Source: an uncultured Clostridia bacterium (GTDB taxonomy: Bacteria; Bacillota_A; Clostridia; Oscillospirales; Oscillospiraceae). Taken from it: a DNA stretch of 11,252 nucleotides. The notes beneath the pieces are model-generated. The model saw nothing but the letters and a program-made list of their open reading frames with translations. It was not told the DNA's origin and ran no database searches. Positions within the stretch are counted from its first letter, which is position 1. Each line of letters begins with the position of its first letter. Below are positions 1-11,252 of this stretch, piece by piece. Where the stretch lies: assembly GCA_947167435.1 (NCBI GenBank), contig CAMVIC010000036.1, positions 1-11,252 on the forward strand. Reading direction: 5' to 3'. The position numbers were made by a program, and so were the translations under genes.

Positions 1-597
1 GTGATGTCGGTTGCGGACCGCATGCACATCGAACCCGATGAGGTCACCCCCATGGACGATTCCATCCTGGCAGGCGTGGGCAACGCGGTCTCCTTCGTCT
101 TCAAGCCTCTGGGCTTTGGTTCCTGGCGGCCTACGGTGGCCACGGTCACGGGCCTGGTGGCCAAGGAGGAAGTGGTCAGCACCTTCGGCGTCCTGTACAA
201 CTATGACGACGCAGACGGCGAAGAAGAACTGGAGGAGAACGGCGATCAGATCTGGGACAACGTCGCCGCGGACTTCGGCGCTTTTTCCGGCGGTCATGGA
301 ATGCTGGCGGCCTTCGCCTTCATGCTCTTCAATCTCCTGTGCGCCCCCTGCTTCGCGGCCATGGGTGCCATCAAGCGGGAAATGAACAACCCCAAGTGGA
401 CGCTGTTCGCCATCGGCTATATGTGTGTCTTTGCCTACGTCGTTTCTCTGATCGTCTATCAGGTCGGTAAGATTTTCGTCGGCGGCGTGAATGTCTTTGG
501 GCTGATCGTGGCGCTGATCCTGCTGGCCCTGCTGTGCTGGCAGCTCTTCAAGCCCTACAAGGAATCCACCAAGCTGACCCAGAAGGTGCGCGTGTAA
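1..597 (+). CDS. feoB: Ferrous iron transport protein B (FeoB), C-terminal fragment
   Basis: This is the C-terminal 198 residues of FeoB, the GTP-binding membrane permease that imports Fe2+. The 5' part, including the G domain, lies outside the window, so the GTG at base 1 is not a real start. The visible part holds conserved FeoB stretches: a GVGNAVSFVFKPLGFGSW segment, the gate-type motif TVTGLVAKEEVVSTFGVLY (about residues 48-66 of the fragment), a soluble acidic insert (DDADGEEELEEN), and the membrane stretch with FNLLCAPCFAAMGAIKREM. The last helices (about residues 135-183) end in a basic tail. The CAPC cysteines match the conserved CxPC of FeoB membrane domains. The next gene encodes the small Cys-rich protein that accompanies FeoB in Firmicutes, which supports the call. 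A 7-bp hairpin follows the stop at once. Confidence 0.97.
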   Translation: MMSVADRMHIEPDEVTPMDDSILAGVGNAVSFVFKPLGFGSWRPTVATVTGLVAKEEVVSTFGVLYNYDDADGEEELEENGDQIWDNVAADFGAFSGGHGMLAAFAFMLFNLLCAPCFAAMGAIKREMNNPKWTLFAIGYMCVFAYVVSLIVYQVGKIFVGGVNVFGLIVALILLALLCWQLFKPYKESTKLTQKVRV

Positions 598-614
598 GGA
601 CAGCGCAGCTGTCC
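598..614 (+). other. Hairpin directly after feoB stop
   Basis: GGACAGC (598-604) and GCTGTCC (608-614) form a perfect 7-bp stem with a 3-base GCA loop, starting on the base after the feoB stop codon. No T-run follows, so it is not a normal intrinsic terminator. In this position it could protect the feoB transcript 3' end or lower read-through into the small downstream gene. That role is inference. Confidence 0.5.
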
Positions 615-650
615 CCGCCGCCCTCAAAACCGGAAAGGAGCTGATGCGTT

Positions 651-842
651 ATGTTAACCTGGCTGCAATCAAATCTGGCGTCCCTGATCGTCGGATTCGT
701 CCTTCTGCTCATCGTTTGCCTGATCGTCCGACGATTGATCCTGGACAGAAAAGCCGGCAAACATATCTGCGGCGGCTCCTGCGGCTCCTGCGGGGGCGGC
801 TGCGGCGGCTGCCCCATGCAGGGGAAATGTCACAGCAAATAA
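651..842 (+). CDS. FeoB-associated Cys-rich membrane protein
   Basis: This 63-residue protein has one hydrophobic span (about residues 9-26), then a basic stretch (RRLILDRKAGK) and a short tail packed with Gly and Cys. Cys are at 23, 40, 44, 47, 51, 54 and 60, in the pattern CGGSCGSCGGGCGGCPMQGKC. This matches the FeoB-associated Cys-rich membrane protein family of Firmicutes, which sits next to feoB. The tail is presumed cytoplasmic and may bind iron or tune FeoB, but no biochemical role is established that I know of. The start at 651 is set by a GGAAAGGAG ribosome site at 632-640, 10 bases upstream. An ATG at 644 is in another frame and gives a product with no family features. The gene lies 53 bases after feoB and is probably co-transcribed with it. 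Confidence 0.9.
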   Translation: MLTWLQSNLASLIVGFVLLLIVCLIVRRLILDRKAGKHICGGSCGSCGGGCGGCPMQGKCHSK

Positions 843-846
843 TCCG

Positions 847-880
847 AAACGGATCCACGGGAGCGCCTGTGGATCCGTTT
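847..880 (+). terminator. Hairpin, possible weak intrinsic terminator of feo operon
   Basis: AAACGGATCCAC (847-858) pairs perfectly with GTGGATCCGTTT (869-880). The stem can extend inward by GGG/CCT with one G-U pair, leaving an AGCG loop. The arm ends in TTT, and bases 885-887 add another TTT after GCGC, so the U-tract is broken. It sits right after the Cys-rich gene and ends 25 bases before the ABC ATPase start, a normal terminator position. Since no clear promoter fits between it and the ATPase, partial read-through is likely. Confidence 0.55.
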
Positions 881-905
881 GCGCTTTCAAAGAAAGGAAC
901 GAAGT

Positions 906-1610
906 ATGTCTGAAATTCTGAATTTCAACGATGTTTCCCGTGTCTACACCGCGGGCGACCATGAGCTGCGGGCACTGGATCACATCGATCTGTCCCTTCC
1001 CTCCGGAAAATTCATTGTGGTGCTGGGCCCCTCCGGTGCGGGCAAGAGCACCCTGCTGAATCTGATCGGCGGGCTGGACAGCCCCACCGAGGGCCGCATC
1101 ACCGTGGACGGCCGGGACATCTCCAAGCTGAGCAACGACCAGCTGGCGGAGTACCGGGCCCAGACTGTGGGCTTTGTCTTCCAGAATTACAATCTGATCC
1201 CCACCCTGACGGTCTACGAGAACGTGGCCCTGGTGCGGGAGATCGTGAAAAATGCCCTGCCTGCGGAGGAGATGCTGGCTGCGGTGGGTCTGGCGGATCA
1301 TCTGAAAAACTTCCCGGCGGAGCTCTCCGGCGGCGAGCAGCAGCGGGTGTCCATCGCCCGGGCTCTGGCCAAGAACCCCAAGATCCTCCTGTGCGACGAG
1401 CCCACCGGCGCCCTGGACAGCGAGACCGGCGTGGTGGTGCTGAAGCTGCTGCTGAAAATGGCCCGGGAGCGGGGCAAGACCATCGTGATCGTCACCCACA
1501 ACCAGAACATCGCCAAGATGGCGGACGTGATCGTCCGGGTCAAGAGCGGCCATATCCGCAGCATGGAGACTCAGGAGCATCCGCTGTCCGCGGAAGAAGT
1601 GGAGTGGTAG
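906..1610 (+). CDS. ABC transporter ATP-binding protein, LolD/MacB type
   Basis: This 234-residue protein is the nucleotide-binding subunit of a type VII (MacB/LolCDE-like) ABC transporter and works at the cytoplasmic membrane face. Motifs in order: Walker [10 protein letters not shown] (41-49), Q-loop Q93 in [10 protein letters not shown], signature LSGGEQQ (140-146), Walker B ILLCDE (160-165) with catalytic E165, D-loop GALD (168-171), and H-loop H198 in IVTHN. Length and motif spacing are normal. The start at 906 follows an AAAGGA ribosome site (893-898) at 7 bases; an in-frame TTG at 879 would begin inside the upstream hairpin and adds residues unlike the family. The permease gene starts one base after its stop, so the two form one transporter. 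Its substrate cannot be read from sequence. Position between feo and metal genes hints at shared regulation but does not prove a metal role. Confidence 0.93.
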
Positions 1611-1611
1611 T

Positions 1612-3894
1612 ATGCTCAGAAGAAAGCTGTTTCGCACCATGGGGCGCTACAAGGCCCAATTCATCTCCATGGTGATCATGGTGGCCCTGGGCATGGGCGT
1701 CTTCCTGGGCTTCCAGATGGAGTGGTACACCCTGGACCGGACCTCCGCCCAGACCTACGAGGCCACAGGCTTTGCCGACTTCCGCGTCCTCTCCGACGCC
1801 CTGTTCACCCGGGAGGAGCTGGAGGCCGTGGCGGCCATCCCCGACGTCACCGACGCCGCCCGCTTTTTGAAGGTCAACGTGGCGGTGAAGGGGGACACGG
1901 ATCTGCTGGGCCTCAGCGTCACCTCCAACCCCAAGGTCTCCGGCATCTACGTTAGCTCCGGCGAGGCCTATGACCCCGAGGCGAAGGGCTTCTGGCTCTC
2001 CGATCAGTACGCCGCCAAGAACGGCGTCCGCCTGGGGGACGAGCTGAGCCTGATCTACGCCGCCCCCTTCGGCACGGTGGAGCTCACGGCTCCGGTGCTG
2101 GGCCTTGCCAAGGCCTCGGAGTATATGATCTGCATCCAGGACGGCACCCAGCTCATGCCGGACTACAACAGCTACGGCTTCGTCTACACCTCTCCGGCCA
2201 TGCTGGAGGAGGCCATGGGCATGGAGCTCTACACCCAGCTCAATCTGATCTCCGAGCTGTCCAAGGAGGAGATCGTCCCGCTGATCGACCGGGCCCTGGG
2301 CCGTACCAGTCTGGTGCTGTCCAAGGACGAGGTGGTCTCCTGGTCGGAGACCCAGGGGGAGATCAACGAGGGCGTCACCATGGGCTCCATTTTGCCGGTG
2401 CTCTTCCTGGCCATCGCCATTTTGACCATGGTCACCACCATGCACCGCATCACCGCCTCCGAGAAGACCCAGATCGGCCTGCTGAAATCCCTGGGCTTCA
2501 CGGATTGCCGCATCCTCCGGCACTATTCCGCCTACGGCCTTGCCATCGGCATCGCGGGCTCCGTCCTGGGGGTGGGCATCGGCTATCTGCTGGCCTGGTA
2601 CATCATGAACCCCGACGGGGCCATGGGGACCTACGTGGACCTGATCGACTGGACGCTGTACGTGCCCGGCTTCTGCTGGATCGTGCTGGCGGCAGTGATC
2701 GCGTTCCTGACGCTGATCAGCTTCCTGTCGGTGAAATCCATGCTCCGGGGCAGCGCCGCCGACGCCCTGCGGCCCTATTCCCCCAAGCGGATCCGGGCCT
2801 CGGCCCTGGAAAAGACGGGCTTCTGGAAGCGGATGCGCTTCAGCGGCCGCTGGAACCTGCGGGACAGCCTGCGGCATAAGTCCAGGACCGGCATGACCCT
2901 CTTCGGCATCGTGGGCTGCATGATCCTGCTGGTGGGAGCGCTGGGCATGAACGACACCGCCCGCAGCTTCGTCACCGTGTTCTACGACGAGGCCACGGCC
3001 TATGAGAGCAAGCTGAACCTGTCTGCCGACGAGAACGGCAACGAGGCCGCCCTGGCCCTGGCGGAGGAGCGGGAGGGCGACTGGGCCGCCGTGTCCAGCG
3101 TCCAGGTGGGGGACGCCCCGGTGGGGCTGGAGATCTACCACGTGCCCCACGGCCTGATCCACTTTATCGCAAAGGATATGTCCGAGGTGACCCTGGCTCC
3201 GGAGGGGGTCTATATCTGCGACCGCATCGCCCGGGATAACGGCCTGGCCCCCGGGGACAAGATTCGCTTCTCCCCCTACGGCTCCAGCGAGACCTACGAG
3301 GCCACCGTGCAGGGGATCCTGCGCTCCCTGTCCGAGTCCGTGATCCTCTCCGACGAGGCCGCCGACCGGATCGGCATTCCCTATACCGTCAACACCGTCT
3401 ACACCCGGCAGACCGGCATCGAGGCCGGCGGGATCATCTCCAGCGTCCAGAGCAAGCAGAGCATTCTGGACTCCTTCGACAAGTTCATGGAGCTGATGAA
3501 CGCCATGATCTTCCTGCTGGCGGTGGCCGCCGTGGTGCTGGGGCTGGTGGTGCTCTACAACCTGGGCGTTATGAGCTACACCGAGCGCTACCGGGAGATG
3601 GCGACCCTCAAGGTGGTGGGCTTCCGGGATCGGCAGATCGGCCGCATTCTCATCGGACAGAACCTGTGGCTGACGGTGCTGGGCGTGCTCATCGGCCTGC
3701 CCGCCGGGGTGGGGGTGCTGAAATACCTGCTGACCGCCCTGGCCTCGGAGTATGAAATGAAGCTCACCCTGGGGCCCCTCACCTATGGGATCTCCATCGG
3801 CCTCACCTTCGGCGTCAGCCTGCTGGTGGGCTGGATGATCGCCCGCAAGACCCGGCGCATCGACATGGTGGAGGCGCTCAAGGGCGTAGATTAA
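1612..3894 (+). CDS. FtsX/MacB-type ABC permease with two tandem modules
   Basis: This 760-residue membrane protein partners the ATPase encoded one base upstream. By eye it has eight membrane spans: about 17-36, 257-278, 305-330, 350-375, 428-447, 630-652, 680-705 and 724-742. A large extracytoplasmic domain (about 40-250) follows span 1, and another (about 450-625) follows span 5. Each half is thus one span, a large domain, then three spans, the layout of one MacB/LolC module. Each half carries the FtsX-type cytoplasmic stretch: TASEKTQIGLLKSLGFTDCRI (near 281-301) and YREMATLKVVGFRDRQI (near 660-676). A single chain may therefore do the work of a permease dimer. Substrates of this class include lipoproteins, peptides and antibiotics; I cannot choose. 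The start is set by GGAG at 1601-1604 inside the upstream gene. There is no signal peptide beyond span 1. Confidence 0.92.
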   Translation: MLRRKLFRTMGRYKAQFISMVIMVALGMGVFLGFQMEWYTLDRTSAQTYEATGFADFRVLSDALFTREELEAVAAIPDVTDAARFLKVNVAVKGDTDLLGLSVTSNPKVSGIYVSSGEAYDPEAKGFWLSDQYAAKNGVRLGDELSLIYAAPFGTVELTAPVLGLAKASEYMICIQDGTQLMPDYNSYGFVYTSPAMLEEAMGMELYTQLNLISELSKEEIVPLIDRALGRTSLVLSKDEVVSWSETQGEINEGVTMGSILPVLFLAIAILTMVTTMHRITASEKTQIGLLKSLGFTDCRILRHYSAYGLAIGIAGSVLGVGIGYLLAWYIMNPDGAMGTYVDLIDWTLYVPGFCWIVLAAVIAFLTLISFLSVKSMLRGSAADALRPYSPKRIRASALEKTGFWKRMRFSGRWNLRDSLRHKSRTGMTLFGIVGCMILLVGALGMNDTARSFVTVFYDEATAYESKLNLSADENGNEAALALAEEREGDWAAVSSVQVGDAPVGLEIYHVPHGLIHFIAKDMSEVTLAPEGVYICDRIARDNGLAPGDKIRFSPYGSSETYEATVQGILRSLSESVILSDEAADRIGIPYTVNTVYTRQTGIEAGGIISSVQSKQSILDSFDKFMELMNAMIFLLAVAAVVLGLVVLYNLGVMSYTERYREMATLKVVGFRDRQIGRILIGQNLWLTVLGVLIGLPAGVGVLKYLLTALASEYEMKLTLGPLTYGISIGLTFGVSLLVGWMIARKTRRIDMVEALKGVD

Positions 3895-3958
3895 AAAACC
3901 AAGCGCATTCCCGGGAAAACAAGGAAAGTCTGACAGAAAGAAAAATGGAGGTAGTATT

Positions 3959-4231
3959 ATGTTAACCGGAAAACTTGCAATGTTCGCTTTTGGCACCCTC
4001 TTTGGCTCCGCCGGCTTCAAGATCCTGGCAAGCCGGGACGCCCGGAAGGTCTACACCCACGCCACCGCGGCGGCCCTGCGCTGCAAGAAGGAAGTCATGC
4101 GGAACGTGGATGAGATTCAGGCGGCCTGCGCCGACATCCTGGCCGACGCCAAGGAGATCAACGCCCAGCGGGAGGCCGCCGAGGCTCCCGTCTACATCGA
4201 GGACGGCACTGAGGAAGCGACCGAGGTATGA
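3959..4231 (+). CDS. DUF6110-like small protein, hydrophobic glycine-rich N-terminus
   Basis: This 90-residue protein has a short hydrophobic, glycine-spaced segment (residues 6-23, LAMFAFGTLFGSAGFKIL), then SRDARKVYTHATAAALRCKKEVM, then a charged helical stretch (about 45-75) and an acidic tail. From memory it matches the DUF6110 family, small proteins commonly encoded beside metal-transporting P-type ATPases in Clostridia; I could not run a profile search. The start follows a strong GGAGG at 3947-3951, 7 bases upstream. The stop overlaps the ATPase start by 4 bases (ATGA), so the two are translationally coupled, which implies joint function. The hydrophobic segment may be one membrane span or a membrane-surface anchor. 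By analogy with small hydrophobic proteins beside ferrosome ATPases it could act in the same compartment as the pump, but this is inference. The only Cys are C42 and C57, so it is not an obvious metal binder. Confidence 0.78.
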   Translation: MLTGKLAMFAFGTLFGSAGFKILASRDARKVYTHATAAALRCKKEVMRNVDEIQAACADILADAKEINAQREAAEAPVYIEDGTEEATEV

Positions 4232-6336
4232 GATTTCAGATTCTGCACCGTTCCCCCGGCAGACTCCGCCTGCGGGCCTGCGTAAGCCCCATGGAGCCGG
4301 AGCAGGCGGATCTGCTGGAGGCCTGGCTGCTGACCCAGCCGGAGGTGGATCGGGTCAGCGTGCAGGAGGGCATCTGCTCCGTGACCGTGATCTACCACGG
4401 CCCCGTGGAGCCTGTCACCGCCCGGCTGGCTGCCTTTACCTATGAGCGGGCTGCCGCCGAGCTGCCGCCCCTGCACCACAGCAGCCGGGCCATGAACCGG
4501 GAATACAAGGAGAAGCTGGTGGACATGGTGCTGCGCCACTATCTGAAAAAGTGGTTCCTGCCCGCCCAGCTTCGGATCGCCCTGGGGATCTGCCAGTCCG
4601 CGCCCCGGATCCTCCGGGCGCTGCGGATCCTGCTGTCCGGGCGGCTGACCGTGGACGTGCTGGACGGCGTCGCCATCGGCGTGTCCCAGCTCACGGGGGA
4701 CTTCGGCACTGCCGCCTCCGTGTCGTTCCTGCTCCGCCTGGGGGAGACCCTGGAGGAGTGGACCCACAAGCGTTCGGTGGACGATCTGGCCCGCAGCATG
4801 GCCCTGCAGGTGGACACCGTCTGGAAGCTGGACGCCGATGGCCGCCAGACCCTGGTTCCCCTGGAGAAGGTCGCCCCCGGCGACTGCCTGATGGTGCACA
4901 CGGGCCACGTCCTGCCCCTGGACGGCATCCTGGAGAGCGGCGACGTGATGCTCAACCAGGCCTCCCTCACCGGCGAATCCGTCCCCGTGGCCAAGCGGCC
5001 CGGCGCTGCGGTCTACGCGGGCTCCGTGGTGGAGGAGGGCAACTGCGTCCTCCGGGTCGCCGGCTCCGTGGGCGAGAACCGCTACGACCGCATCGTGAAA
5101 ATGATCGAGGACTCCGAACGGCTGAAATCCGGGGTGGAGCGGCAGGCCGCCAATCTGGCGGATCGGCTGGTGCCCTGGTGCCTGGGAGGCAGTCTGGTGA
5201 CCTGGCTGCTGACCCGGAACGTGGCCCGGGCGGTGTCGGTGCTGATGGTGGACTTCTCCTGCGCCCTCAAGCTGTCCATGCCCCTGAGCGTGCTCTCCGC
5301 CATGGGGGAGGCCGGAAACCGGAAGATCACCGTCAAGGGCGGCAAGTTCCTGGAGCGGATCAGCGAGGCGGACACCGTCATCTTCGACAAGACCGGCACC
5401 CTCACCAAGGCCTGCCCCACGGTTTTGCGTGTGGTGCCGTTCCACGGGCAGGACGCCGCGGAGATGCTGCGGCTGGCCGCCTGCCTGGAGGAGCACTTCC
5501 CCCATTCCGTGGCCAACGCCGTGGTGCGGGCCGCCCACGAGCGGGGCCTGGATCACGAGGAAATGCACTCTGACGTGGAATACGTGGTGGCCCACGGCAT
5601 TGCCACCCGGGTCGACGGCAAGCGCACCGTGATCGGCAGCCGCCACTTCGTCTTCGAGGACGAGGGCGTTACCATTCTGCCCGCGGATCAGCCGGCCTTT
5701 GACGCCCTGGATCAAGCCAACTCCTGGCTCTTCCTGGCGGTGGACGGGATACTCTCCGCAGCCATCGGCATTCTCGACCCGCTGCGGCCCGAGGCAGGGG
5801 AGACCCTGGCTGCTCTCCACGCCGCCGGGATCGGAAAGACGGTAATGCTCACCGGCGACAATCAGAACACTGCCGCAGCCATCGCAGAGCTGCTGGGCGT
5901 GGACGCCTTCCGGGCGGAGGTTTTGCCCGAGGACAAGGCGGGCTTCATCCGGAGCGAGCAGGCTGCAGGCAGGACCGTGGTGATGATCGGCGACGGCATC
6001 AACGACACCCCGGCCCTGTCCCTGGCGGACGTGGGCATTGCCGTGGGCAGCGGAGCTACCATCGCCCGGGAGGTGGCCGACGTGGTGATCGCCGCAGAGG
6101 ATCTGCGGGAGCTGGTCTACCTCAAGCGTCTCTCCGACGCCCTGATGCGCCGCATCCGGCAAAACTACCACTTTGTAATGGGCTTCAACGGCGGGCTGAT
6201 CCTGCTGGGGGCTCTGGGGGTCCTGCCCCCGGCTGTGAGCGCCCTGCTGCATAACAGCTCCACCCTGCTGCTGAGCCTGCGAAGTCTGACGAATCTGTTG
6301 GGGGAGAACCATGATCAAAACAACGGTAAAAATTGA
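4228..6336 (+). CDS. P1B-type metal ATPase with SCA motif (P1B-6/FezB-like candidate)
   Basis: This 702-residue P-type ATPase has the P1B layout. Residues 1-75 look like an HMA-fold domain with no Cys pair but an Arg-rich HRSPGRLRLR start. Actuator loop TGES is at 248-251, phosphorylated Asp D387 in DKTGT, TGDN at 542-545, hinge GDGIND at 588-593, and C-terminal spans at about 645-690. The membrane motif that selects metal, normally CPC, reads F-S-C-A-L-K (S344-C345-A346), so a Cu or Zn/Cd pump is unlikely. The N-domain dipeptide, usually HP, reads H426-S427 within EHFPHS. P1B-6 ATPases include FezB, which loads iron into ferrosome organelles of some anaerobes; this gene's motif, its small hydrophobic partner and the nearby feoB fit that group, but Mn or another divalent metal is possible. 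It overlaps the DUF6110-like gene by 4 bases and the HMA gene by 26. Confidence 0.95.
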   Translation: MRFQILHRSPGRLRLRACVSPMEPEQADLLEAWLLTQPEVDRVSVQEGICSVTVIYHGPVEPVTARLAAFTYERAAAELPPLHHSSRAMNREYKEKLVDMVLRHYLKKWFLPAQLRIALGICQSAPRILRALRILLSGRLTVDVLDGVAIGVSQLTGDFGTAASVSFLLRLGETLEEWTHKRSVDDLARSMALQVDTVWKLDADGRQTLVPLEKVAPGDCLMVHTGHVLPLDGILESGDVMLNQASLTGESVPVAKRPGAAVYAGSVVEEGNCVLRVAGSVGENRYDRIVKMIEDSERLKSGVERQAANLADRLVPWCLGGSLVTWLLTRNVARAVSVLMVDFSCALKLSMPLSVLSAMGEAGNRKITVKGGKFLERISEADTVIFDKTGTLTKACPTVLRVVPFHGQDAAEMLRLAACLEEHFPHSVANAVVRAAHERGLDHEEMHSDVEYVVAHGIATRVDGKRTVIGSRHFVFEDEGVTILPADQPAFDALDQANSWLFLAVDGILSAAIGILDPLRPEAGETLAALHAAGIGKTVMLTGDNQNTAAAIAELLGVDAFRAEVLPEDKAGFIRSEQAAGRTVVMIGDGINDTPALSLADVGIAVGSGATIAREVADVVIAAEDLRELVYLKRLSDALMRRIRQNYHFVMGFNGGLILLGALGVLPPAVSALLHNSSTLLLSLRSLTNLLGENHDQNNGKN

Positions 6337-6565
6337 CGGCATGATGTGCGCCATGTGCGAGGCCCATATCTGCGAGACCATACGAAAAGCCGTCCCCGAC
6401 GCCAAAAAGGTCTCCGCCTCCAAGGGAAAAAAGGAGGCCGGCTTTCTGACGGAAGCCCCGGTGGATCCCGAGGCTCTGAAGGCCGCCATCGACGCCACGG
6501 GCTATACCTGCCTGGGCGTGGAATCCGCGCCCTATGAAAAGAAAGGCTGGTTCGGAAAGCCATGA
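6311..6565 (+). CDS. Free-standing HMA metal-binding protein (chaperone-like)
   Basis: This 84-residue soluble protein has the heavy-metal-associated ferredoxin-like fold pattern: strand TTVKIDGM, then the metal site MMCAMC (C13, C16), a helix (EAHICETIRKAV), a strand (KKVSASKGKKEAGFLTE), a second helix (DPEALKAAIDATGY) and a last strand (TCLGVESAP). The site is GMMCxxC rather than the usual GMTCxxC of copper chaperones. An extra Cys is at 70, and the tail is basic and aromatic (EKKGWFGKP). Such proteins bind a thiophilic metal and may pass it to a pump. The gene starts inside the ATPase gene (26-base overlap) behind GGGGAG at 6300-6305, and its stop overlaps the ZIP start by 4 bases. It probably supplies the Cys pair missing from the ATPase N-terminus. 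The metal is not known. Confidence 0.9.
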   Translation: MIKTTVKIDGMMCAMCEAHICETIRKAVPDAKKVSASKGKKEAGFLTEAPVDPEALKAAIDATGYTCLGVESAPYEKKGWFGKP

Positions 6566-7341
6566 AAACGGCGCTGATCGGCCTGCTGATCCCCTTTTTG
6601 GGGACTGCCCTGGGCTCTGCCTGCGTGTTCTGTATGCGAAAGGCGCTCAGCCAGACGGTGCAGAAGGCCCTCAGCGGCTTCGCGGCGGGGGTCATGGTGG
6701 CGGCCTCCGTCTGGAGTCTGCTGATCCCGGCCATGGAGCAGGCCTCGTCCATGGAACGCTGGGCCTTTCTGCCCGCCTTCCTGGGCTTCTGGCTGGGCAC
6801 CGTCTTCCTGCTGGCGCTGGATCATGTGATTCCCCACCTGCACCGGAACGCCAAGGCCGCCGAGGGCCCCAGAAGCAAGCTGGCCCGCACTACCATGATG
6901 GTGCTGGCAGTGACCCTCCACAATATCCCCGAGGGGATGGCGGTGGGCGTGGTCTACGCCGGGCTGGTGTCCGGCTCCGGGGAGATCACGGCGGGGGCCG
7001 CCCTGGCCCTGGCTCTGGGCATCGCCATCCAGAACTTCCCCGAGGGGGCCATCATCTCCATGCCCCTCCACGCGGAGGGGGCGGGGAAGGGCAGAGCCTT
7101 CCTGTACGGCGTCTTCTCCGGCGTGGTGGAGCCGATCTTCGGCATCGTGACCGTGCTGGCGGCGGGCCTGATCGTGCCTGCCATGCCCTATCTGCTGAGC
7201 TTCGCCGCCGGCGCTATGCTGTACGTGGTGGTGGAGGAGCTGATCCCGGATATGGCAGCAGGGGAGCACTCCCACGTGGGCGTCCTCCTCTTCGTCCTGG
7301 GCTTCAGTCTGATGATGGCCCTGGACGTGGCGCTGGGATAG
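6562..7341 (+). CDS. ZIP family divalent metal transporter
   Basis: This 259-residue membrane protein belongs to the ZIP (ZupT/GufA-like) family, which moves Zn2+, Fe2+, Mn2+ and similar ions into the cytoplasm. The binuclear metal site is clear: HNIPEG (120-125) in one helix and QNFPEG (157-162) in the next. Other family features are LALDHVIPH (84-92), VEPIFG (189-194), VEELIPD (224-230) and EHSH (235-238). About eight spans are visible and the length is normal. The first site has the H-N---E pattern seen in ZupT-like proteins that accept several metals. The gene overlaps the HMA gene by 4 bases (ATGA) and is the last of the coupled set of four. Its final eight codons are present a second time at 7691-7714, beyond a non-coding element. 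Confidence 0.95.
   Translation: MKTALIGLLIPFLGTALGSACVFCMRKALSQTVQKALSGFAAGVMVAASVWSLLIPAMEQASSMERWAFLPAFLGFWLGTVFLLALDHVIPHLHRNAKAAEGPRSKLARTTMMVLAVTLHNIPEGMAVGVVYAGLVSGSGEITAGAALALALGIAIQNFPEGAIISMPLHAEGAGKGRAFLYGVFSGVVEPIFGIVTVLAAGLIVPAMPYLLSFAAGAMLYVVVEELIPDMAAGEHSHVGVLLFVLGFSLMMALDVALG
7318..7341 (+). repeat. 24-bp direct repeat, copy 1 (end of ZIP gene)
   Basis: The last 24 bases of the ZIP coding region (ALDVALG and the stop, GCCCTGGACG...GGGATAG) recur exactly at 7691-7714. Both copies also have TGATG just upstream, but copy 2 lacks one G at the join. This copy is in frame and functional. Confidence 0.95.
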
Positions 7342-7343
7342 GG

Positions 7344-7392
7344 AATGCAAAATGCATAATGCATAATTCAGGGAACAGGGAACAGGGAACGG
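7344..7392 (+). repeat. Array of seven 7-base units (AATGCAW then GGAACAG)
   Basis: Read in steps of seven, this stretch is AATGCAA, AATGCAT, AATGCAT, AATTCAG, GGAACAG, GGAACAG, GGAACGG. Two different heptamers are each repeated three times and joined by a hybrid unit (AATTCAG), keeping one phase over 49 bases. It begins two bases after the ZIP stop and ends one base before the 28-bp inverted repeat. This is a slippage-prone simple repeat; no coding role is seen. Confidence 0.9.
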
Positions 7393-7393
7393 G

Positions 7394-7421
7394 GTGCGTA
7401 GGGACGGCACTCTGCCGTCCG
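7394..7421 (+). repeat. 28-bp inverted repeat, left arm
   Basis: It begins GTGCGTAG and contains the hairpin GGACGGCA (7402-7409), loop CTC, TGCCGTCC (7413-7420). It matches 7652-7679 in reverse complement without a mismatch. Confidence 0.95.
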
Positions 7422-7452
7422 TGTTCCCCGCACGAAAGCACTCATCTGTAGC

Positions 7453-7469
7453 GCGGGCTATTAGCCCGC
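7453..7469 (+). repeat. Short hairpin GCGGGCT-ATT-AGCCCGC
   Basis: A perfect 7-bp stem with a 3-base loop, followed by CTTTCCCC. It could act as a weak terminator for the ZIP operon because a few T follow, but the T-run is only three bases. It also resembles the short dispersed hairpin repeats of gut Clostridia, which I recall rather than can check here. Confidence 0.55.
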
Positions 7470-7539
7470 CTTTCCCCTGCACGAAGAATTTTTAATGAAT
7501 ACTGAAAACTTAATAACCGAATAATGAATAATGTCGGAT

Positions 7540-7563
7540 TTTTTCAAATCGCGATTTGAAAAA
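7540..7563. repeat. Perfect 24-bp palindrome centred on TCGCGA
   Basis: TTTTTCAAAT (7540-7549), CGCG (7550-7553) and ATTTGAAAAA (7554-7563) make an uninterrupted 24-bp palindrome. It has an A-run on one side and a T-run on the other, so a transcript from either strand would form an AT-rich hairpin. It sits in the middle of the foldback element. A protein-binding site or a bidirectional terminator are both possible. Confidence 0.85.
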
Positions 7564-7651
7564 CACAATCATTTTCGAGGTGTCGCGACCGACAATTATT
7601 CACTATTACCTCTTATGTATTCTCTATTATCTTTTTCCAACCTGGAGAAAG

Positions 7652-7679
7652 CGGACGGCAGAGTGCCGTCCCTACGCAC
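7652..7679 (-). repeat. 28-bp inverted repeat, right arm
   Basis: Exact reverse complement of 7394-7421, with the hairpin GGACGGCA (7653-7660), loop GAG, TGCCGTCC (7664-7671) and the tail CTACGCAC (7672-7679). Confidence 0.95.
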
Positions 7680-7690
7680 GCGGAACTGAT

Positions 7691-7714
7691 GCCCTGGACG
7701 TGGCGCTGGGATAG
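7691..7714 (+). repeat. 24-bp direct repeat, copy 2 (orphan copy of ZIP gene end)
   Basis: This is an exact copy of the last 24 bases of the ZIP gene, stop codon included, lying 373 bases further on with no gene in front of it. It marks where the original downstream flank of the ZIP gene resumes after the inserted element, or it is a by-product of the rearrangement that placed the element. Confidence 0.93.
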
Positions 7715-7723
7715 ACCATACAC

Positions 7724-7741
7724 CCCCGCAATTACGCGGGG
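7724..7741 (+). terminator. Hairpin CCCCGC-AATTAC-GCGGGG, possible original ZIP terminator
   Basis: A 6-bp all-GC stem with a 6-base loop lies 10 bases after the second copy of the ZIP stop. If the inserted element is taken out, it would sit right behind the ZIP gene where a terminator is expected. The bases after it are CTATC and an A-run, not a T-run, so termination is uncertain. Confidence 0.35.
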
Positions 7742-7759
7742 CTATCAAAAAACACACAG

Positions 7760-7775
7760 GTTAGTAAATGCTAAC
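7760..7775. promoter_or_regulatory. Operator-like inverted repeat GTTAG-N6-CTAAC
   Basis: GTTAG (7760-7764) and CTAAC (7771-7775) are perfect inverted half-sites around TAAATG, one base before the likely -10 box, so a bound protein would block RNA polymerase. The arms TTAG/CTAA resemble those of DtxR/IdeR-type iron regulators, but in the IdeR consensus as I recall it the spacing is shorter. Regulation by iron is therefore a guess. Confidence 0.4.
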
Positions 7776-7776
7776 T

Positions 7777-7782
7777 TATAAT
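7777..7782 (+). promoter_or_regulatory. Candidate -10 box of the lipoprotein operon
   Basis: TATAAT at 7777-7782 is a perfect -10 hexamer, 9 bases before the ribosome site and overlapping nothing coding. No TTGACA-like -35 lies at 16-18 bases upstream (sequence there is ACACAG), so the promoter would be weak or activator-dependent, and its leader very short. Confidence 0.4.
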
Positions 7783-7806
7783 AGCAATAGAAGGAGACAA
7801 GAACCC

Positions 7807-10029
7807 ATGAAAAAGAAAGCACTTTCCCTGATACTCGCATCCCTGCTTCTGTTTGGCGCGCTGAGCGGCTGCGGAAGCACGGAACCGAAAACCACCACCG
7901 GCAGCGTAGTCACGGAGGCAAAAACCGAAGCCACCGCAAAGCCTGCCGATACGACCCAGGCAAGCACCGAGGCAGATGTACGCTTCGCGGGCGGCGCGGG
8001 AACCGCGGAGGATCCGTGGCAGATCGCGACGGCGGAACAGCTTGACCGCGTCCGGGAGGATCTGACCGCGCATTACGTGCTGGCGGCGGACATCGACCTT
8101 TCCGGCTATGAGAACTGGAGCCCCATCGGCGCGTTCCAGTCGAAGTCCGACGCGCCGGAGGACGCGGAGGTTCCCCATCCCGATTACGCGTTTACCGGCA
8201 GCTTCGACGGCGCGGGGCATACGATCTCCAATCTGACGATTACCGGGGAAGCGCCCATGGGCATGGGGCTTTTCGGCTGTGCGGCCGGGACGGAGAACGG
8301 CGCAGCGTTTATCGGCCATTTTACGCTGAAAAATGTGACGGCCTCCGGTATGTACCTGGTCGGCGGCGCGGTGGGTCTGCAGTTTATGAACTGCCCCGTG
8401 TCCGACGTGCATCTCGTGGGCGAGAATCATCTGAGCGGTATGCAGGGCATCGGCGGCATCGTGGGAACCGGATTCGATTTGATTTCCGATTGCAGCGCCA
8501 CGGCGGACATTACCGTTCTGGGCGACGACGGTGCCTGCGCGGGCTTGATCGCCGGCGGAACGACCATGAGCTCCATCCGGAGCTGCACGGTGACAGGCGG
8601 AAGCATCACCGCCGAGGGCAATCAGACTTGGGGCTTCGGGGCCCTCTGCGGCGCTCCCTGGGGCGCGGCTGAGATCGAGGACTGCAAGGTCAGGGGCACC
8701 GTCATCACCGTGAGCGGCGAACACAACCGTCTGGTGGGCGGCTTGGTGGGCTTCGGCGGGACCTACGACCCGTCGGCCCCCGCCCAGATCACCGGCTGCA
8801 CGGTGGAGGACGTGACGATCAACTGCTCCGGAACCACGGATTGTGTGGGCGGCCTCATCGGCGCGGGCAAGGAAATGATGGAAGGCAGCGACGTGATGTC
8901 CTCCTTCGTTGTCAGCGGCTGTTCTGTCTCCGGAAGCATCTCGGGCGGCAGGAATTACGTGGACGCCATCGTCGGAGACCCGGCCTGTGCCGTATCCGTA
9001 GACTGCGAGGGCGGCATGACGGTTTCCGGCGCGACCGGACTGGGCGGCATTTTCCCCGCCGTTGCCGGGGAGAACGGCACCACCTACGTCAGCCTCTTTG
9101 ACCGGATCATCAGCGATGAATGGACGCCTGTCTGGGTGGACTACGTCGCCGCAGTCGTCGGCGAGGACGCCGCTGCCGAAACGACCGCTGGCCTGCAGGC
9201 TGCAATCACCTCCGATCTGTACGGCGAAGCCGCTGTGAGCGCGTTTGCCGACGGCAGCTACGCCTTTGACTGTGATTTTATCAACGGCGCGCAAAGCCTT
9301 AGCTTCAAGGACAATACCGTCACAGTCCTGAAAACGGACGGCAGCAGCGAGACCCATACCTACGAGTATCTTGGCCAGTACAACATCGGCGAGGGCGAGA
9401 CCATGATGTATCAGGGCATGGAAATCTCTATGGCCTTCCCAGTGGACGTGTACAAGAGCATCGACGAGGCAGGGGAGTTCAACTATTTCTTCCTGCGGGA
9501 AGACACCATGGAGGAGACCTATCACATTGAATTCCGCTACGGTAAAGATCTGGAGGAGCTGCAGGGCTATCTGGTGGGCCCCTACGCCTACTGGCTGGCG
9601 GCGGGCATCGATGAAAACGCCGACGACGATACCGTCCGCCGCGTGATCAGCCTGTTCTGCCTGGAAAACATGGACTATTCCGCCCACGCGGAAGCGGCCC
9701 TGCGCCAAATCAGCGAGCTCGGCTTCGTGGGGACCTGGAAAGCGGATATGTCCGCCTTTGGGGAAGCCTACGCATCCGTTGATCTGCAAATGACCATCGA
9801 CGAAAACGGCCACGGCGTCACCACCATGGACGGCACGCAGACCGCCGACTTTGAGGCCTACGCGGTGGACAACGGCGAAAAGGGCGACGGTGTCGGCCTC
9901 TACGTGGCCTACAGCAATCTGGAATACGAGGCGGAGGCCGCGCCCTATACCATGACGGTAAACGACGCGGGCCAGACGGTGCTGACGCTGACGGCGGACG
10001 ACGGGACCATCAGCTGGATCCGGCAGTAA
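7807..10029 (+). CDS. Lipoprotein with GLUG-repeat domain and ZinT-like C-terminal region
   Basis: This 740-residue exported lipoprotein starts at 7807 behind AAGGAG (7791-7796); the in-frame ATG at 7768 lies upstream of the -10 box and would hide the signal peptide. Residues 1-22 are a lipoprotein signal with lipobox LSGC (Cys22), then a Thr/Ala-rich linker to about 57. Residues 60-420 open with GTAEDPWQIATAEQL and DIDLSGY, then carry GLUG-type units such as GGIVGTG, GGLVGFGG and GGLIGAG, likely a beta-helix. Residues about 437-623 resemble the ZinT/YodA metal-binding domain (YEYLGQYNI, AGEFNYFFLREDTMEETYHIEF, GPYAYWLAAGIDENADD), but the HFH metal motif is absent. The last 115 residues look beta-rich (FVGTWKADM) and are unassigned. 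It may gather a ligand or metal for the ABC exporter-type protein that follows 36 bases later. The function is unknown. Confidence 0.82.
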   Translation: MKKKALSLILASLLLFGALSGCGSTEPKTTTGSVVTEAKTEATAKPADTTQASTEADVRFAGGAGTAEDPWQIATAEQLDRVREDLTAHYVLAADIDLSGYENWSPIGAFQSKSDAPEDAEVPHPDYAFTGSFDGAGHTISNLTITGEAPMGMGLFGCAAGTENGAAFIGHFTLKNVTASGMYLVGGAVGLQFMNCPVSDVHLVGENHLSGMQGIGGIVGTGFDLISDCSATADITVLGDDGACAGLIAGGTTMSSIRSCTVTGGSITAEGNQTWGFGALCGAPWGAAEIEDCKVRGTVITVSGEHNRLVGGLVGFGGTYDPSAPAQITGCTVEDVTINCSGTTDCVGGLIGAGKEMMEGSDVMSSFVVSGCSVSGSISGGRNYVDAIVGDPACAVSVDCEGGMTVSGATGLGGIFPAVAGENGTTYVSLFDRIISDEWTPVWVDYVAAVVGEDAAAETTAGLQAAITSDLYGEAAVSAFADGSYAFDCDFINGAQSLSFKDNTVTVLKTDGSSETHTYEYLGQYNIGEGETMMYQGMEISMAFPVDVYKSIDEAGEFNYFFLREDTMEETYHIEFRYGKDLEELQGYLVGPYAYWLAAGIDENADDDTVRRVISLFCLENMDYSAHAEAALRQISELGFVGTWKADMSAFGEAYASVDLQMTIDENGHGVTTMDGTQTADFEAYAVDNGEKGDGVGLYVAYSNLEYEAEAAPYTMTVNDAGQTVLTLTADDGTISWIRQ

Positions 10030-10065
10030 GCCGCAAAGCAAAACGCTGAGAAAGAAGGCTTGTCC

Positions 10066-11252
10066 ATGAAAGAAAAAAAGCAAAGCGAGTTGTCCGTTCT
10101 GCTGGGCTACGCGGGCAGCTACAAGGGCCTGACTTTTCTGGGGCTTGGGCTCTCCGCTGTGGCGATGATCCTGGGAATGGCCCCCTACGTCTGCATCTGG
10201 CTGGCGGCCCGGGATCTGATCGACGTTGCCCCGGAGTGGACGAAGGCGGCGGACGTTTCCAAATACGGCTGGCTGGCCTTTGGCTTTGCCGTGGCGGGGA
10301 TCGCGGTGTACTTCGCCGCTCTGATGTGTACCCATCTGGCGGCCTTCCGCACGGCCTCCAATATCCGCAAGCAGGGCATGGCCCATCTGATGAAAACGCC
10401 CCTGGGCTTTTTTGACGCCAACGCCTCCGGCCTGCTGCGGAACCGGCTGGACGGGGCGGCCTCCGAGACGGAGACCCTGCTGGCCCACAACCTGGCGGAC
10501 ATTGTGGGCTCCGCCGCCATGCTGATCGCCATGATCGTTCTGATGTTCGTCTTCGACTGGCGCATGGGAGCGGCCTGCCTGCTGGCGGCAGTGATCTCCA
10601 TTCTGGCCATGTTCTCCATGATGGGGGGCAAGAACGCCAAGCTGATGATGGAGTACCAGAGCGCCCAGGACGATATGAGCAAGGCCGGCACGGAGTACGT
10701 CCGGGGCATTCCCGTGGTGAAGGTGTTCCAGCAGACCGTGTACTCCTTCAAGGCATTCCGGCAGGCCATCGAGGACTACAGCGCCAAGGCGGAGCGCTAC
10801 ACCGACGGCGTCTGCCGCCTGCCGCAATCCATCAATCTGACCTTCACCGAGGGCGCGTTCATCTTCCTGATCCCGGCGGCCCTGCTGCTGGCGCCGGGGG
10901 CGCTGAAAAGCGGCAGCTTCGCCGACTTCGTGACGAACTTCGCCTTCTACGCGGTCTTCTCCGCCATCGTCTCCACGGCCCTGGCCCGGATCATGTTCGC
11001 CGCCAGCGGCACCATGCTGGCCAAGACCGCCCTGGCCCGGATCGACACGGTGATGAAGGCCCCCACCCTTTCCCTTCCCCTGTACCCCCAGACGCCCCGG
11101 GACAACAGCGTGGAGTTCAAAAACGTGAGCTTTACCTACCAGGGCGCGGCCCTGCCCGCCCTGGACCGGGTCTCCTTCCGGGTGGAGCCGGGGCAGACGG
11201 TGGCCCTGGTGGGCCCCTCCGGCGGCGGCAAGACCACGGCGGCCAGCTTGAT
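10066..11252 (+). CDS. ABC transporter half-molecule (membrane domain fused to ATPase), 3' truncated
   Basis: The reading frame is open from ATG at 10066 to the window end, giving 395 residues with no stop. An AGAAGG ribosome site (10053-10058) lies 7 bases upstream. The N-terminal part is a six-span exporter-fold membrane domain (spans near 23-47, 70-95, 145-165, 168-190, 263-283 and 290-312), with the coupling motif KTPLGFFDANASGLLRNRLD (110-129) typical of this fold. The ATPase domain begins near residue 349 (VEFKNVSFTYQG) and reaches Walker A GPSGGGKTT (383-391), where the window ends. Such half-transporters work as dimers, often with a second gene just downstream. Many export, but iron-siderophore importers of the IrtAB type share this fold, and the iron-rich setting makes import worth considering. 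It is probably co-transcribed with the lipoprotein gene. Confidence 0.95.
   Translation, partial: MKEKKQSELSVLLGYAGSYKGLTFLGLGLSAVAMILGMAPYVCIWLAARDLIDVAPEWTKAADVSKYGWLAFGFAVAGIAVYFAALMCTHLAAFRTASNIRKQGMAHLMKTPLGFFDANASGLLRNRLDGAASETETLLAHNLADIVGSAAMLIAMIVLMFVFDWRMGAACLLAAVISILAMFSMMGGKNAKLMMEYQSAQDDMSKAGTEYVRGIPVVKVFQQTVYSFKAFRQAIEDYSAKAERYTDGVCRLPQSINLTFTEGAFIFLIPAALLLAPGALKSGSFADFVTNFAFYAVFSAIVSTALARIMFAASGTMLAKTALARIDTVMKAPTLSLPLYPQTPRDNSVEFKNVSFTYQGAALPALDRVSFRVEPGQTVALVGPSGGGKTTAASL

Follow-up and report, generated by a model that had tools for sequence, protein, structure and literature searches.

Homologues of the Clostridioides difficile ferrosome genes beside feoB, HMA, and ZIP genes in an uncultured Oscillospiraceae bacterium: a probable iron-regulated feo-fez locus

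Ferrosomes are a recently described iron-storing organelle, made by Shewanella putrefaciens among other bacteria. The ferrosome genes of Clostridioides difficile, fezAB, were reportedly presented by Pi et al. in 2023, and a second type of fez cluster, that of Desulfovibrio magneticus, which is said to encode further membrane proteins, by Grant et al. in 2022. Here, we analyzed 11,252 nt of DNA from an uncultured Clostridia bacterium of the Oscillospiraceae (assembly GCA_947167435.1, contig CAMVIC010000036.1, positions 1 to 11,252, forward strand; hereafter, the window), which carries the end of a feoB gene and, further downstream, homologues of fezA and fezB together with genes for a free HMA protein and a ZIP transporter. 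With a probability of roughly two in three, the window contains a feo-fez locus under iron regulation, in which FeoB would import Fe(II) and FezAB would pump it into a ferrosome store. The reading is based on three observations: FezA and FezB have homologues in the C. difficile pair, the neighborhood recurs in related genomes, and a palindromic box is shared.

The closest described systems are known to us from passages of the cited papers. C. difficile fezAB corresponds to CD630_05910-05920 (PMC11651100); Table 1 of PMC6311696 names 05910 an 'ATPase' and 05920 a 'Hypothetical protein', both upregulated when iron is low and when fur is mutated, and gives a Fur box at 05920. According to a passage of the review PMC12574912, ferrosomes require FezA and FezB, which Fur represses. 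For the D. magneticus type, a passage of PMC10979944 names a FezB-type pump and FezC, a cytochrome that may aid transport in and/or out, which is the sole exit proposal in the passages on ferrosomes; D. magneticus itself makes these organelles (passages of PMC12748827). The mycobacterial PacL-Ctp systems (passages of PMC9374683 and PMC13043812) involve a small protein that combines a single hydrophobic segment with a helical part in the cytosol and the gene of which stands directly before that of a P1B ATPase. DUF6110, the family to which our FezA homologue belongs, is related to PacL (DUF1490) and typically encoded with P1B6 pumps according to a passage of PMC9374683, and is termed PacL-like in one of PMC13043812; the DUF6110-P1B6 pairing is already in print in this form, and we add the match to FezA-FezB, the recurrent partners, and the box. 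Our literature search, which had Grant 2022 and Pi 2023 outside it, found no paper joining the ferrosome with DUF6110, the effluxosome, or a metal efflux platform.

Four genes of the window overlap successively by 4, 26, and 4 bases, and the open reading frame (ORF) coordinates thereby agree with the original prediction, a reading made from the letters of the window alone; its assignment of the four to DUF6110, a P1B ATPase, an HMA protein, and a ZIP transporter was upheld by Pfam. The features in question are as follows.

3959..4231, (+) strand: fezA homologue, DUF6110, 90 aa (PF19605, 95.6 bits, cut-off 26, E = 2e-27)
4228..6336, (+) strand: fezB homologue, P1B-6 ATPase, 702 aa (Pfam E1-E2_ATPase 121.4, Hydrolase 96.8)
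6311..6565, (+) strand: free HMA protein, 84 aa, motif GMMCAMCEAH (PF00403, 30.2 bits, cut-off 24.8, E = 6e-7)
6562..7341, (+) strand: ZIP transporter, 259 aa (PF02535, 76.1 bits, cut-off 35.1, E = 3.7e-21)
1..597, (+) strand: feoB, C-terminal part (Pfam Gate, 39.7 bits), the gene continuing beyond the window edge
651..842, (+) strand: FeoB-associated Cys-rich membrane protein, 63 aa (PF12669, 35.8 bits, cut-off 27)
7760..7775, no strand: palindrome GTTAG-N6-CTAAC, a likely DtxR-type operator, sole exact copy in the window

The window DUF6110 protein is 48.6% identical over 70 aa to the product of a C. difficile gene adjoining a P1B-6 ATPase gene; the C. difficile counterpart scores 84.7 bits with PF19605, and in both organisms the small gene lies directly upstream of the ATPase gene. 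DUF6110 was found in three of four C. difficile genomes (83.5-84.9 bits), in each case directly before a gene for a P1B ATPase 48-49% identical to that of the window along almost the full length, and in the fourth, a draft of strain 173070 (G457), neither DUF6110 nor a P1B-6 ATPase was found. Because there is one such ATPase per genome in the three genomes, we infer that the C. difficile DUF6110 gene is fezA. The link of the small protein to fez clusters that the original prediction had suspected thus takes the form of a shared Pfam family, with the fezA identity of the C. difficile gene resting on the passages cited above. The two loci also differ: the feoB end, HMA, and ZIP of the window have no match in the 12.7-15 kb around the C. 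difficile pair (three genomes), and Fur control is reported for C. difficile fezAB, whereas the nearest kin of the window has a DtxR-type regulator and box. Taken together, these data make the locus a variant form of the fez locus known from C. difficile. The likeness to the D. magneticus type, which shares a FezB-type pump, is drawn from published descriptions. The window is without FezC/DUF4405, and a FezC-type cluster was ruled out, since no DUF4405 lies within 10 kb of the fezA places searched.

Further analysis of the DUF6110 protein revealed an N-terminal hydrophobic Gly-rich segment, the glycines of which are invariant across 33 aligned relatives, followed by a long predicted helix; a low-confidence structure model (mean predicted local distance difference test score of 68) places helices at 2-15, 17-23, and 26-74. 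Among 120 listed relatives, the best named one comes from an 'Oscillospiraceae bacterium' metagenome-assembled genome (MAG; 72% identical), and further named ones from Clostridia, Eubacterium, Erysipelotrichaceae, and Solobacterium MAGs (66-71%). A PDB search gave a best E-value of 0.0094, to protein A, with no stretch passing by itself. Of the 80 stretches (1.30 Mb in all) that we fetched around DUF6110 matches, hereafter loci, 75 have a P1B-6 ATPase match of >100 bits on the strand of DUF6110 and no more than 250 bp after it, beyond what chance would give; the five exceptions are one where the contig ends (L143), one with small ATPase remnants only (L156), and three in which none was found (L037, L157, and L158). 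L156 (8164-8715) appears to be a decayed fez pair, with a ZIP match of intact length adjoining. DUF6110 occurs in 72 of 300 genomes sampled from one bacterial family vs 11 of 398 sampled phylum-wide, which suggests that ferrosome genes are common in that family. In a plasmid collection, two records matched DUF6110 at E = 0.01, both from Deinococcus and both also the two best ATPase matches; the two genes are adjacent by position in both plasmids, with the gene table consulted for one.

With the P1B-6 ATPase of C. difficile, the window ATPase shares 49% identity (715.5 bits), as against 31% with the next best ATPase of that species. In transmembrane segment 4 (TM4) it has FSCALKLS, that is, SCA in place of CPC, as expected from the non-CPC motif first noticed; its N-terminal stretch is without CxxC, and SCA is what we take to be the P1B-6 motif of TM4. 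It shares both FSCALKLS and the HN of TM6 with C. difficile FezB. The pattern D-[FY]-S-C-A is present in TM4 of all 71 full-length ATPases, including those of the window and three C. difficile copies, and HN in TM6 of 70, the remaining one running into masked bases (seven partial or split ATPases were omitted); the copper, cadmium, and DUF1490-linked ATPases of the set carry CPC or SPC. HN is given as a mark of P1B6 in a passage of PMC9374683.

A tree of 40 proteins, made from 27 of the 71 full-length ATPases plus references and not including CtpC, PfeT, D. magneticus FezB, or a known manganese exporter, split the 32 rows labelled P1B-6 beforehand from the 8 others by a 100/99 branch. Within the former, C. 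difficile FezB falls in a 100/99 clade of 26 DUF6110-linked pumps, and the window ATPase groups with it; long branches occur in some rows, including the more distant plasmid rows, whose placement is unsure, and some rows, such as C. difficile FezB, differ in letter composition. The original prediction would have been refuted by a grouping with manganese, zinc, or copper exporters and not with FezB; the window ATPase instead falls with C. difficile FezB, away from the copper, cadmium, and PacL-linked pumps included, and the tree placement rules out a copper, cadmium, or PacL-type export group for it. Two plasmids in the set carry other arrangements. In an Azospirillum brasilense plasmid (p3; L188, 659-4698), genes for an HMA2 protein, a cation transporter, two hypothetical proteins, a YtxH protein, and an SCA/HN P1B ATPase follow one another near an iron ABC transporter, a row resembling a proteobacterial fez-like cluster. 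A Mycobacterium intracellulare plasmid (L190, 1998-7440) has two tandem DUF1490-ATPase modules, with ATPases of different types (SPC and CPC).

Neighboring genes were counted within 10 kb of 58 DUF6110 (fezA) places in 50 DUF6110-positive genomes, namely 49 of the 50 such genomes of the family with completeness of at least 90% and contamination of at most 5% (G547, a weak match, was omitted) plus the nearest genome to the window (G001). Matches had to reach E ≤ 1e-40 for ZIP and E ≤ 1e-11 for HMA, and a single gene may count twice among the pairings. Poisson expectations assume 2.5-Mb genomes and independence, which related species lack, and so genus counts are given too. HMA was paired with fezA 19 times in 13 genera (0.43 expected), ZIP 12 times in 9 genera (0.45 expected), FeoB 11 times in 9 genera (1.26 expected), and a DtxR-type regulator 26 times in 12 genera (1.11 expected); by this excess, chance neighborhood was ruled out for the four genes, and the proposed co-occurrence of the HMA and ZIP genes with fezA proved recurrent. 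The original prediction had gone further, to a possible distinct iron compartment system with an added HMA carrier and ZIP channel; the recurrent association stands, while for 'distinct' the evidence reads instead as a variant of the C. difficile kind. Gene orders vary: feoB, FeoB-associated, fezA, fezB in L025, L026, and L028, with the DUF6110-ATPase pair ~110 bp past the FeoB-associated gene; DtxR, ZIP, fezA, fezB, HMA in L032 and L149; and an HMA-ZIP pair ~2 to 4 kb ahead of fezA in L031 and L118. AraC-family regulators stand directly before fezA in L109 (3281-4252), L120 (3156-4046), L133 (8497-9447), and L136 (10128-11048).

The palindrome of the window, 16 bp in length, has 144 exact copies in the 1.30 Mb, a number that includes near-copies from related genomes, and these fall in 54 of the 80 loci; other spacer lengths from 0 to 12 gave 0-3 copies each. 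It is likely the operator of a DtxR-type regulon. In the locus of the nearest kin (L024), where feoB is complete, palindromes lie at 7418, 16724, 17055, and 17217, and the exact box occurs before feoB, before feoA, and in the gap between feoA and DtxR. At the scale of whole genomes, the box is rare and clusters in feo-fez loci. The nearest-kin genome has six copies in total, of which four lie in the 10 kb matching the window and its upstream part and a fifth ahead of another DtxR-type gene. Elsewhere, the fez-feo locus of G034 holds 4 of its 5 palindromes and a feo-HMA-ZIP locus of G546 holds 8 of 13; G708 has 10 of 15 within ~30 kb of fezA, and in G567, 0 of 8 lie near fezA; G044 has none and one C. 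difficile genome has 1. A reversed control pattern gave 2 (G001), 0 (G034, G546, and G708), 1 (G567), 4 (G044), and 5 (C. difficile) copies. Specifically, an exact box lies within 350 bp upstream of 17/24 DtxR-type, 10/16 feoA, 6/24 HMA, 2/15 ZIP, and 2/24 FeoB matches (by density, ~4% expected; units are BLAST matches of >50 bits, with some genes split in two). By this distribution, the box is tied to the regulator and to the feo operon, and any tie to fez would run mainly through shared operons. All 24 DtxR-type regulators read have a C-x-x-E-H site, and the N-terminal metal-site position is Met in 14 (that of the nearest kin included), Asp in 8, and Asn in 2; C-x-x-E-H with Met is presumably the iron-type DtxR site and not that of MntR. 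Other genes found after exact palindromes encode an FMN_red flavoprotein, an LCM-type methyltransferase, and S-layer-homology proteins.

The presence of both an importer and an ATP-driven pump in the same operon suggests a role for the pump in filling an internal store, rather than in efflux, and this suggestion, together with the FezAB homology, makes a ferrosome the best reading. In the mechanism we propose, for which we infer which metal is moved, that there is a compartment, and what the HMA and ZIP proteins do, FeoB would bring Fe(II) into the cytosol; FezA, in a PacL-like manner, would organize membrane and pump through its Gly-rich hydrophobic segment and long helix; FezB would move Fe(II) from the cytosol to the membrane-bound store; the free HMA protein would deliver Fe(II) to FezB, whose N-terminal stretch is without CxxC; and ZIP would move metal cytosol-ward, acting as an additional cell-membrane importer or else providing the exit from the store. 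As for the last two proteins, G-M-x-C-x-M-C-E-x-H is identical in 37 of 37 aligned HMA rows (30 distinct sequences; rows of ≤60 bits omitted), and CxxC is absent from the seven ATPase N-terminal stretches compared. BbZIP is the closest solved relative of the window ZIP (E = 4e-33 to 3e-36, aligned nearly full length), and the HNIPEG and QNFPEG stretches of the latter align to it; we take the conserved HNxPEG/QNxPEG stretches to be those of the ZIP metal site.

Several results weigh against the feo-fez reading. Just 6 of 74 DUF6110 matches have an exact palindrome in the 350 bp upstream, and the Fur-consensus scan gave no good Fur box in the window, the best site having 3 mismatches (before C. 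difficile fezA, the same scan gave 2-mismatch sites at best). For 5 of 5 regulators scanned, the best NCBIfam models were MntR (manganese), all under cut-offs; set against the regulator residues above, these matches leave iron the likely, though not certain, metal. No FezC/DUF4405 match lies in the window; among 53 genomes, 10 have one, in no case at 10 kb or less from a fezA place. HMA had no match in four of four C. difficile genomes, so that ferrosomes there do without it; within the same family, ZIP is about as frequent with DUF6110 as without (38/50 positive vs 7/11 negative genomes, p = 0.46); and the nearest kin retains just the first ~30 residues of its ZIP gene. Strong ferritin matches (at least 100 bits) are not significantly rarer in DUF6110-positive genomes (13/50) than in negative ones (9/25, p = 0.43), and no significant anti-correlation with DUF6110 thus emerged for ferritin as an alternative store. 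The 25 negative genomes here were picked from those listed in our surveys; 11 belong to the same family as the positive ones and 14 to different families within the order.

The alternative that fares best accepts the fez pair as real and makes HMA and ZIP general iron-regulon neighbors outside the compartment, which we regard as plausible, if less likely than not. HMA genes also lie close to FeoB where fezA was not found within 10 kb (G009, G475, G477, G596, and G650), HMA-FeoB pairings number 16 vs 0.92 expected, HMA-ZIP pairs occur off the fezAB contig in G524 and G546, and no such HMA gene was found in C. difficile. Against it, overlaps join fezA-fezB, fezB-HMA, and HMA-ZIP in the window, and both genes are enriched by fezA in several gene orders. 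At the genome level, HMA was found in 36/50 DUF6110-positive vs 7/25 negative genomes (p = 0.0004; same-family negatives 4/11, p = 0.036) and ZIP in 38/50 vs 11/25 (p = 0.01). Since HMA lies near FeoB as well as near fezA and ZIP shows no significant difference in frequency within the family, the two belong to the iron neighborhood; their tie to fez is strong for place and not exclusive. The two off-contig pairs are those of G546 (contig C7, 195001-214000; L194) and G524 (C157; L195), and L194 also holds feoB, DtxR genes, and 8 exact palindromes. C. difficile has two ZIP genes, the longer 31-32% identical to the window ZIP and located elsewhere in the genome than fez; in both genomes examined, a perfect Fur-consensus match lies ~80 bp before its matched stretch, and the shorter has no match better than 2 mismatches. 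The longer gene would be zupT, given in a passage of PMC6311696 as Fur-box positive and iron-responsive; we count these signs of iron control in favor of the feo-fez reading.

At the other end, the feo-fez reading can be extended to a complete iron-storage cycle, with FeoB import, a C-x-M-C-E-x-H carrier in the HMA protein, filling by FezA-FezB, and exit through ZIP in the ferrosome membrane, and with FezA and PacL as branches of one membrane-organizer family, for organelles and for efflux platforms, respectively; we consider this extension speculative and, as a whole, rather unlikely. If the ZIP and HMA proteins are part of the organelle, the locus supplies candidates for iron exit and for a carrier; FezC was not found beside these genes.

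Under a further explanation, DUF6110 would cluster the P1B-6 pump in the cell membrane as a PacL-like efflux platform that expels excess Fe(II), Mn, or Zn, with no store. The published relation of DUF6110 to PacL and its encoding with P1B6 pumps (passages of PMC9374683 and PMC13043812) favor it, as does a weak similarity to DUF1490: the DUF1490 profile scores 18.2 bits (E = 0.0027) on the window protein, under its cut-off of 28.4, and hhalign of DUF6110 with two DUF1490 sequences gave E = 2e-4 at a probability of 45%. Through this distant and probably weak relation, the locus ties the FezA family to PacL. However, the closest characterized pair is C. difficile FezAB, the genes adjoin an Fe(II) importer, and expression of the C. 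difficile pair increases when iron is low rather than when it is in excess. In the tree, the two DUF1490-linked ATPases lie outside the FezB clade, across the 100/99 branch, and carry SPC and CPC as opposed to the SCA of the window; a PacL-like C-terminal metal-binding motif was not seen in the window protein, the C-terminus of which is without a His/Cys cluster. We therefore judge efflux of this kind unlikely. Least probable is a manganese locus, in which the DtxR-type protein would be MntR, the FeoB relative and ZIP would import Mn, and the P1B-6 pump would export or store it: the MntR matches point that way, as do statements in PMC11651100 passages that Porphyromonas gingivalis takes up Mn through a Feo homologue and that a feo operon of C. 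difficile responds to neither iron nor Fur, but the regulator residues and the iron regulation of C. difficile FezAB (a passage of PMC6311696) speak against it.

Other features of the window concern the surroundings of the feo-fez genes.

879..3894, (+) strand: ABC ATPase (879-1610) and FtsX permease (1612-3894), separating the feo from the fez genes
7768..10029, (+) strand: GLUG-motif lipoprotein (PF07581, 50.9 bits), directly past the palindrome

The feoB gene noted upstream in the original prediction is present, as its C-terminal part only and with the FeoB-associated gene and the ABC-FtsX pair intervening; NCBIfam FeoB models match this part below whole-protein cut-offs, as expected for a fragment. 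Neither a tRNA nor an Rfam match reaching the gathering score was found in the window. The palindrome overlaps the first ATG of the listed GLUG lipoprotein ORF, for which a later Met, opening MKKKALSL, is the likelier start, and the lipoprotein may belong to the same regulon as the feo-fez genes; past it, an ABC exporter begins. In the nearest kin (G001 contig C69, 8027-8119 and 7078-7422; L024), both the ZIP gene, which is truncated, and the GLUG gene, reduced to its two ends, are shorter than in the window, through either gene loss or an assembly fault. The ABC ATPase-FtsX pair recurs by feo-fez genes at varying positions in L024, L032, and L149 and, more diverged, in L120, and in L025 the ABC ATPase alone stands near these genes, with the contig ending there.

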